Shown here: positions 19,490-21,654 of the stretch, piece after piece
Layout: the number at the start of each line of letters is the position of its first letter
How positions within the stretch are numbered: the stretch's first letter is position 1
From: Acidobacteriota bacterium
GTDB taxonomy: Bacteria; Acidobacteriota; Terriglobia; Terriglobales; Acidobacteriaceae
Length of the DNA: 64,000 nucleotides
Assembly: GCA_003010405.1 (NCBI GenBank)
Contig: PJLO01000001.1
Location: 159,029 to 223,028, forward strand
Reading direction: 5' to 3'
Notes under the pieces: model-generated
Told to the model about the DNA's origin: nothing
Seen by the model: the letters and a program-made list of their open reading frames with translations, nothing else
Database searches by the model: none
Position numbers and translations under genes: made by a program

Positions 19490-21178
19490 CTACGGTTGCA
19501 GCGTAATGGCAGCCTGCGACTGATTCTCTATCGTGTAGTACACCTTGTGCGTGGTCGCCGTAAAAGTGGTTGGCGCCGTGTCGAAAATCTGTATTCCTGG
19601 GTCGCTCCCAAAGAACGTAGACGAGCATTGCGCATCGAGCGAACCGGCCTGCCCAATCGCGGGAATTGCCAGCGCAGTGTTCGTATAGGTCGGCGGAGCG
19701 CTCGCATACTTTGATATCACCTTTGCGCAGCTAAGCTGCTTCGGACTTGCCAGGTAGATCATCTCTCCCGTTTCCATCGCATAGTTGGTTCCATCGCTGG
19801 CCACAATCGTGAATTTCACTTTCCCCCCTGCGGCCTCTCCGGTGGGAATATGTATGGAGAACAGATTCGCCGTAGGCACTGCTCCGGTCATCGCCTTTGG
19901 TTGCCCCGCGATCAGTAGCCGATCATTCACCGCGCTTGTGGTCGAGCTTTCCGTCTGCAGCTGCAGATTTCCCCCGGTAATTGTTCCGTTTCCATTCCCA
20001 GATGCGAGCACCAGGTTTCCGTCGGGCTGAGGTTGCGTGCCCGAAGTACCGGTTGAGGTTGCCGCAGAGGTCATCACGGTTCCATCCGGAAAAACGAAGC
20101 CGCCCGCGGTGCTGTGAACCGCTCCCGCAACCGTCAGCATCTGGTCGGGCGTGGTGGTTCCGATGCCTACGTTGCCGCCTATGTAGGCCCCATAATTATT
20201 AGCTCCCGAGGTGGAAGGGTTGATCCACAAACCGTAGGTATTGCTGATTTGCCCCGTGCCCGCCTTCAGTATGTATTCGCTGTACAATCCAACCGCCTTG
20301 CGAATGACATTGCCAGAGCCAGTATCGACTGTCCCGCCGCCCCCGTAATGAAAATACGCGTCCCAACCGCTGGACGGCTGAAGCGTGAGCTGCCCCATGT
20401 ATAAGCCAAAAGCATTGTTAGCGCTTGGCAGCGTTCCCCCCACGTTCAGCCGGACATTGGACAAAGGACCGATTCCAATGCCTCCAACATTGGTTAAAGA
20501 AAAGCTTCCTGCGACGGCGATGTTTGAGCCCGACTGAGAAATCACTGAATTTCCCAGATTACCCGACGTGTCCGTAAACACGGGCAGGTATCCCGCGGCA
20601 GCTCCAGAAACCGAAATCGCAGGAGTTGCTCTTGCGTTCAGTGTGAATACGGATGCAGATAGCGCCGCGGGTGCGTAGCTTGCGTTCGTGGAGTTTGCGC
20701 AAGCCGTTGTCTGAGAGTTTACAGTCGCATAAGCCGATGCGGGCTTCCCTCCCAGCATTTCTGAATCCACTGCATGGTGCGCGTATGGCACGCTCACGAG
20801 CAAGACGCGAGGCTGCTCGGCGGCTCCCGGCGAGTGTGTCAGCACCGCGAGCCAGCGTGCGTCGCCGCTCGAAAACAGCTCGGAAGGAATTCCCGTCGCG
20901 CTGGTTGCACCCAGTAATGCACTGAATCTGCCGTTTGCGTCAGTTGCGAGGTTCTGCGTCTCCTGCCAGAGTGGCACTCCGCCGCTTTGCTCTTCGTAGA
21001 TGGCGAAGGTGACGCCCGTTACTCCCGTTAGTGGTTGACCGGCAGCATCCAGCGCGCGACCGCTGAATCGAATCAGTCGCTGCCCGGCACTGGTAACCAT
21101 TTGCGCCGCCATGCTGACGCTAAGCAAAACGTAGAGAGCGGCAATACAGATCTTACGAGCAATTCTGTGAGTGCCCAA
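19490..21178 (-). CDS. Large exported repetitive protein, tail-fibre-like segment
   Basis: 562 aa from TTG 21178, preceded by AAAGGTG; an upstream TTG at 21217 is possible. Signal peptide (ICIAALYVLLSVSMAAQ). The N-terminal 40-150 region (RFSGRALDAAGQPLTGVTGVTFAIYEEQ) looks like a carboxypeptidase-regulatory-like beta domain. The centre is Ser/Gly/Ala/Asn-rich, and VGIGTTTPDQMLTVAGAVHS followed by GGFVFPDGTVMTSAA resembles phage tail-fibre and peptidase S74-associated stalks. No S74 chaperone domain follows. Probably an extracellular structural protein; function unknown. Confidence 0.75.
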   Translation of the reverse strand: MGTHRIARKICIAALYVLLSVSMAAQMVTSAGQRLIRFSGRALDAAGQPLTGVTGVTFAIYEEQSGGVPLWQETQNLATDANGRFSALLGATSATGIPSELFSSGDARWLAVLTHSPGAAEQPRVLLVSVPYAHHAVDSEMLGGKPASAYATVNSQTTACANSTNASYAPAALSASVFTLNARATPAISVSGAAAGYLPVFTDTSGNLGNSVISQSGSNIAVAGSFSLTNVGGIGIGPLSNVRLNVGGTLPSANNAFGLYMGQLTLQPSSGWDAYFHYGGGGTVDTGSGNVIRKAVGLYSEYILKAGTGQISNTYGLWINPSTSGANNYGAYIGGNVGIGTTTPDQMLTVAGAVHSTAGGFVFPDGTVMTSAATSTGTSGTQPQPDGNLVLASGNGNGTITGGNLQLQTESSTTSAVNDRLLIAGQPKAMTGAVPTANLFSIHIPTGEAAGGKVKFTIVASDGTNYAMETGEMIYLASPKQLSCAKVISKYASAPPTYTNTALAIPAIGQAGSLDAQCSSTFFGSDPGIQIFDTAPTTFTATTHKVYYTIENQSQAAITLQP

Positions 21179-21354
21179 CGAATGTACACCTTTAACGCAG
21201 CGACAGAGGCCAAGCAAAGTACGCTGGGCGCACGCGCCGCATTACCTGATCGCAAAAGTATTTGGCTTTATTGGGAAGACTACTATTGCTTTAAGAAATG
21301 TCAAGGCGGCGATACCGCTGCACAATGATTTTGCGGCTCGAAATGATGGCAGAA

Positions 21355-21390
21355 ATGAAAAGCGCCCCGCACTGTAGCAATGCGGAGCGC
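21355..21390 (-). terminator. Terminator of small transcription unit
   Basis: On the minus strand GCGCTCCGCA pairs with TGCGGGGCGC (one G-U), 9-nt loop, then TTTTC. It lies about 180 nt before the start of the large exported protein, so it could be a plain terminator or an attenuator. Confidence 0.8.
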
Positions 21391-21518
21391 CGGTAAGCTG
21401 TTTTGGTTTGGCCTGAGGCGGGCTCACTCCCTCCATACTGCGCAACCCAATCTGCGCGAGCTGTGGATGGAACGCACCCAGCGACAAACTCCAATAAGCC
21501 TCGAAGTCTGGCGAGTGG

Positions 21519-21538
21519 TTAGAGCGAAGCCGCCCTAA
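21519..21538 (-). other. Strong hairpin at the stop codon of the 20-codon ORF
   Basis: On the minus strand TTAGGGCG pairs with CGCTCTAA around a GCTT loop (one G-U pair); flanking GTGG/CCAC may extend it. The TAG stop of the small ORF sits in the 5' arm. Confidence 0.5.
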
Positions 21539-21597
21539 GCCTCAGCCACCTCACTGATCACGATTTGCCTGCTACATTCGCCTGAACTTTTTTCCAT
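21535..21597 (-). CDS. Small ORF (20 aa) with consensus RBS
   Basis: Encodes MEKSSGECSRQIVISEVAEA. AGGAGGTG stands 6 nt before ATG 21597, and a near-consensus sigma-70 promoter lies about 30-57 bp further upstream, so expression is well supported even though the peptide is unrecognised. It is too short to judge by codon use. The peptide could be a functional small protein, a leader peptide, or the 5' stub of a frameshifted gene: one frame downstream stays open with reasonable codon choice (SPDFEAYWSLSLGAF). Confidence 0.5.
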   Translation of the reverse strand: MEKSSGECSRQIVISEVAEA

Positions 21598-21602
21598 CGG
21601 AC

Positions 21603-21654
21603 CACCTCCTCTCCAGTGTAACGCCATCCTAGACTGTCGCTCGGGGGTTGTCAA
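21603..21654 (-). promoter_or_regulatory. Near-consensus sigma-70 promoter and Shine-Dalgarno
   Basis: Minus strand: TTGACA (21654-21649), 17-nt spacer, TAGGAT (21631-21626), then GGAGAGGAGGTG (to 21603). The -35 is perfect and the -10 matches 4 of 6. It is among the best sigma-70 promoters I see in the window. Confidence 0.75.

Follow-up and report, generated by a model that had tools for sequence, protein, structure and literature searches.

The Ms_IGR-5 family (RF02471) has so far been listed as a non-coding small RNA. Its S. avermitilis member was found experimentally to be a transcription unit of its own (PMC8780764), and the M. abscessus and M. smegmatis members carry ribosome footprints, for which the authors reported no clear evidence of translation (PMC4974804); RNPs can be an alternative source of such footprints. 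The dual-function sRNAs SgrS/SgrT and SR1/SR1P are, like the RNA described here (on comparative evidence), small RNAs that are also translated, but their peptides are functional and conserved, whereas here conservation concerns the reading frame and, for the most part, not the peptide. Leader-peptide attenuators and uORF switches share with it a little constrained peptide and overlapping helices that translation of a short ORF would rearrange; in contrast to them, this transcript has no downstream gene and ends at its own terminator, so that any effect would be exerted in trans or on the RNA itself. The extended Shine-Dalgarno (SD) sites of S. aureus (PMC13009471) show similarly long SD:anti-SD pairing, but in the present RNA the SD spans the whole 16S tail, is invariant in one RNA family and is missing from the ordinary genes of the window, the 64,000-nucleotide stretch of Acidobacteriota DNA that was analysed.

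The unit examined covers 265 bases on the minus strand (21355–21619), to which all features below belong, and comes with a promoter, a very strong SD, a 20-codon ORF, a stop-codon hairpin and a terminator. The sigma70-type promoter TTGACA-N17-TAGGAT (21626–21654) precedes an RNA that runs from a 5′ ACAC to the terminator T-run (21355–21619), and relatives carry similar TTGAC and TA-rich hexamers 5′ of the ACAC start. The intrinsic terminator (21355–21391) consists of a 14-bp stem (21391–21361) and the T-run, and it abuts helix P2 in relatives too. Neither scan did better than shuffled sequence (promoters, 1 found versus 1.3 expected; terminators, 4 found versus 3.4 expected), and both signals are taken as real because they are conserved, not because of the scans; the window RNA's own promoter and terminator are predicted from sequence and conservation. 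The order of promoter, ACAC start, SD, ORF and terminator is identical in relatives. AGGAGGTGRTCC occurs only once in the whole genome, at this locus, and the 268-nt fold has a z of −2.4. The order of signals given in the original prediction is confirmed, with RF02471 aligning from end to end, and its view that something is transcribed and translated is borne out by conservation.

Positions 1–184 of the RF02471 model align on 21619–21355 with 21.2 bits (E 0.011), with limits that coincide with the expected start (21619) and the T-run (21355), although this score lies below the gathering cut-off of 45 bits. Four Acidobacteriota relatives among 120 genomes of the same order (L004–L007) score 49.5–47 bits, above the cut-off, with others following; together with a Zixibacteria copy at 55.9 bits they bridge the window to Actinomycetota copies at 84–179 bits. 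A scan of named genomes for the core pattern GGAGGTGGTCC-N20-50-GTGAGGTGGCTG matched over 119 contigs, nearly all from Actinomycetota, and one Zixibacteria MAG, and the matches that were checked score 56–179 bits with RF02471. The pattern was absent from the viral contigs scanned, and a phage origin was rejected on this ground. A second model, R1, covers the 5′ part of the RNA and was built from both phyla with the window included, so homology is not provable by R1 alone. With R1, 42 of the 43 genomes sampled from the window's taxonomic family gave a match, in a single case a weak one (20 bits), and strong scores were also obtained in several further Acidobacteriota families; this is the conservation in other Acidobacteriota that had been suggested as a check. 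R1 matches under about 25 bits are outside the counted evidence, and a candidate at 22 bits (L017) was dropped as it lies inside a coding region.

Homology to RF02471 is drawn from ungapped shared blocks, shared helices and the order of parts. Both conserved blocks align across both phyla in the whole-model alignment, and the covarying helices P0 (in a mixed alignment) and P2 (in both phyla) are common to the window branch and RF02471. In addition to the end-to-end alignment, the window RNA has the 5′ block ACAC..AGGAGGUGGUCC, the GUGAGGUGGCUG block, and the 3′ CAG..ACC strand followed by a terminator in common with this family, and it probably also forms a free-standing transcription unit. 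It differs in scoring below the family cut-off, in its longer and variable ORF in a family catalogued as non-coding sRNA, in an extra stop-codon hairpin and in a one-base P2 bulge. The window RNA thus very probably belongs to the RF02471/Ms_IGR-5 lineage, as a divergent branch in Acidobacteriota. We regard it as a genuine small RNA that is conserved, folded and translated, and from these comparisons we consider the class assignment firm. The original statement that nothing of the kind is described is not quite accurate, as the RNA belongs with RF02471, a catalogued family without an assigned function. By these comparisons, the range of RF02471 extends to Acidobacteriota and one Zixibacteria MAG. 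The Zixibacteria copy (L047, 603–757) is rich in AT, its 12-aa ORF is of the Actinobacterial type (MINTELSEVAAT), and it could represent a third phylum or a binning error.

The SD1 region AGAGGAGGUGGUCCGA (21597–21612), which contains the core SD AGGAGGTG (21610–21603), is complementary to the single-stranded 3′ tail of 16S rRNA. As the genome's own 16S end is absent from the assembly, the tail GAUCACCUCCUUUCU was read from two relatives (L189 and L190). The SD1:16S duplex spans the whole single-stranded tail at −25.6 kcal/mol, compared with a best value of −14.3 and a median of −8.0 kcal/mol for the SDs of 42 window genes, and SD1 energies in homologs range from −20.9 to −27 kcal/mol. In one homolog (L188, G097:C21:3658-3671), the SD is the exact 14-nt complement of the 16S end, and a search with the 16S 3′ end matches this locus on the opposite strand because its SD complements that end. 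A second SD-like element, SD2 (GAGGUG, 21547–21552), lies exactly 15 nt (five codons) 5′ of the stop codon, a distance fixed in 165 of 165 ORF-bearing homologs. With the stop codon in the A site, the P-site codon of the ribosome is 6 nt behind SD2, which is the usual SD distance.

The micro-ORF MEKSSGECSRQIVISEVAEA (21535–21597) runs for 20 codons from an ATG (21597) to a TAG (21537–21535). In all 52 Acidobacteriota homologs and in 113 of 114 homologs outside this phylum (165 of 166 overall), an ATG, GTG or TTG lies 4–15 nt past GGAGG and begins an in-frame ORF that continues without a stop to GAG GTG; by the same criteria, at most five homologs are open in either of the other two frames. The three start codons interchange among homologs, and the spacing from SD to start varies regardless of frame while that from start to EV is always in frame. 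Actinomycetota have 31, 32 or 33 nt between SD and GAG in equal shares, and the start codon moves along to leave a constant seven codons between start and GAG; in Acidobacteriota, the body before GAG has 6 to 17 codons. The stop, whether TAG, TAA or TGA, always follows five codons after GAG (165/165 homologs with the ORF). Since the homologs are related to one another, the ORF counts are not independent, but many separate changes in ORF length and start codon must have occurred despite this kinship. The sole homolog without one of the three start codons (L124) shows an ATT in the proper frame, 9 nt past the SD, possibly a rare start codon.

In nearest-neighbour comparisons, the peptide body evolves almost neutrally in Actinomycetota (synonymous share 0.21 versus 0.23 expected) and mildly constrained in Acidobacteriota (0.33 versus 0.22 expected). 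These results give good support to the view that the ORF is translated and that evolution has kept its translation, and by the same comparisons selection on the peptide sequence is slight or absent, although, given the mild constraint in Acidobacteriota, the peptide may still have a function. Of the earlier alternatives, small protein and small RNA are combined in what conservation shows, a translated ORF within a structured RNA. The suggestion of a frameshifted gene remnant was discarded because ORF, frame and stop are kept in two phyla.

Both covarying helices contain codons of the ORF. P0 pairs the 5′ end (CACnnG; CACUGG in the window, 21613–21618) with the bases before GAGGUGG (CnnGUG; UCAGUG, 21552–21557), and GC, AU, UA and CG all occur at one of its pairs. 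P2 pairs GGUGGCUG (21543–21550), which comprises the codons for EVA and the next one, with CAGNNACC directly 5′ of the terminator; its 3′ strand in the window, CAGCUUACC (21392–21400), resembles an internal anti-SD and is adjoined on its 5′ side by a conserved unpaired element (21401–21409; AAACCAAAA in the window, AAUCCCAA in most relatives). P2 is 98.9% paired across 126 homologs, and for its 26 variant 5′ strands the paired share is 99.5%, where shuffling reaches 93.8% at most, the bulge position being optimised for pairing in observed and shuffled pairs alike. Variant pairs include GGUGACUG/CAGAUCACC, GGUGCCUG/CAGGCCACC, GGUGUCUG/CAGACUACC and GGUGGCGA/UCGCCACC. The conserved structure, with P2 as long-range and P0 as 5′ helix, is well supported by this covariation. 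The stop-codon hairpin TTAGGGCG/CGCTCTAA (21519–21538; also given as UUAGGGCG/CGCUCUAA) is found within the same taxonomic family with compensating changes (L013/L015) and is replaced by other pairing in other families. Of 123 full-length homologs, 80 show P2 in the minimum-energy fold and 14 show P0, and in these folds SD1 often pairs with 3′ sequence, so that the folding order is uncertain; P0 and P2 may belong to different states of the RNA or arise while it is transcribed. When a ribosome footprint was imposed at the stop codon in the fold computation, the 3′ strand of the window RNA became wholly unpaired.

The RNA lies between UbiX (Flavoprotein, PF02441) and a gene at 19493–21178, with NUDIX beyond. 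This gene is on the same strand as the RNA, about 180 nt downstream of its terminator, and its exported-looking protein of 562–575 aa (window 19490–21217, minus strand) has no Pfam match; among the genomes compared, only that of the window carries it between the RNA and NUDIX. In L011, UbiX lies upstream of the RNA and a convergent NUDIX gene directly downstream, and in G002 (L002) UbiX is about 1.9 kb upstream with another gene between, again with a convergent NUDIX gene downstream. The congener G001 (L198) has UbiX followed directly by NUDIX and lacks the RNA, which, set against its wide conservation elsewhere, reads as a clean loss; the absence from close relatives that was to count against the original prediction was found in this one congener. 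G003 and G051 likewise gave no match to the RNA. This variation in neighbours indicates that the RNA stands alone as a movable unit and does not serve as leader of the exported-protein gene.

Conservation of the frame without the peptide suggests that the RNA is switched by a ribosome moving along it. We propose a free-standing sRNA with an obligatory translated micro-ORF, the fold of which is gated by the translating ribosome, a reading to which we give a little better than an even chance. SD1 would capture a 30S subunit via its whole 16S tail, and the ribosome would read a few codons, melting P0 and the 5′ strand of P2. SD2, which has the ideal spacing to the P site when a ribosome terminates, would then hold it at the stop codon, and the freed 3′ strand (AAUCCC..CAGNNCACC) would act in trans on other RNAs; when no ribosomes initiate, this strand would stay locked in P2. 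The peptide would be mostly a by-product. Taken by itself, the gating mechanism is a reasoned proposal that we infer with a confidence ranging from somewhat below even to just above it. More tentatively, and with considerable doubt, an RNA class in at least two phyla may read out ribosome availability, with the 16S-tail SD loading the 30S subunit, a throw-away micro-ORF moving the ribosome, the second SD parking it at the stop and a trans-acting 3′ element being unmasked, such that translation rather than the peptide is the signal.

The same ORF conservation in two phyla would be expected if the RNA were the mRNA of an 11–22 aa peptide acting on a protein or membrane, with the structure tuning expression, and the mild purifying selection in Acidobacteriota and the C-terminal EV[AT]-like motif shared by all homologs agree with such a gene. 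However, the EV[AT] codons are set by P0, SD2 and P2, and changes among A, T, P and S follow compensating changes in P2; as the body also evolves almost neutrally in Actinomycetota and, in Acidobacteriota, has anywhere between 6 and 17 codons ahead of GAG, we regard a small-protein gene as unlikely. Slightly less likely still is a ribosome decoy, which would tie up 30S subunits or 16S 3′ tails at the hyper-strong SD1 and use the short ORF to make the ribosome cycle on it. SD1 energies far beyond those of ordinary genes in all homologs, the exact 14-nt complementarity in the G097 homolog and the second SD-like element near the stop all fit a decoy, but it would require very high RNA abundance and offers no explanation for the conservation of P2, its 3′ strand included, or of the unpaired element close to the terminator.

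A leader peptide and attenuator for the exported-protein gene near 21178, as the original prediction had also considered, would accord with the shared strand and the distance of about 180 nt past the terminator, but it is highly improbable given that the RNA has its own terminator in all cases, that relatives differ in the gene that comes next (in L002 and L011, NUDIX in convergent orientation), and that most Actinobacterial copies have no conserved co-directional gene downstream. The Rfam match also raised the identity of a 6S/Ms1-type RNA that binds RNA polymerase, to which the size and abundance class and the Actinobacterial occurrence of Ms1 would correspond. We rejected this identity, now scarcely credible, on locus, literature and a separate 6S gene: the Mycobacterium RF02471 RNA sits between aminodeoxychorismate-lyase-like and nitrobindin-like genes and not at the HAD-hydrolase locus of Ms1, IGR-5 and Ms1 are given as separate RNAs (PMC10454040), and a canonical 6S RNA is encoded elsewhere in the window genome (L003, G000:C52:1665-1854; 56 bits, over the cut-off). 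A translated ORF is likewise unlike 6S. We found no literature on an Rv0812/Rv0813c sRNA or on Ms1 in Acidobacteriota.

The comparative data argue that the ORF of RF02471, a family listed as non-coding, is real and ancient, and that its frame is selected without the peptide. If a ribosome does gate this free-standing sRNA, the RNA would be a translation sensor acting in trans, and mycobacteria and major soil bacteria would be among the groups that have it. In distant Acidobacteriota families (L170, L172 and L174–L178), the RNA has diverged: its P2 contains GGUGGCGN, compensated by changes in the 3′ strand, and some copies lack the AAUCCC element.
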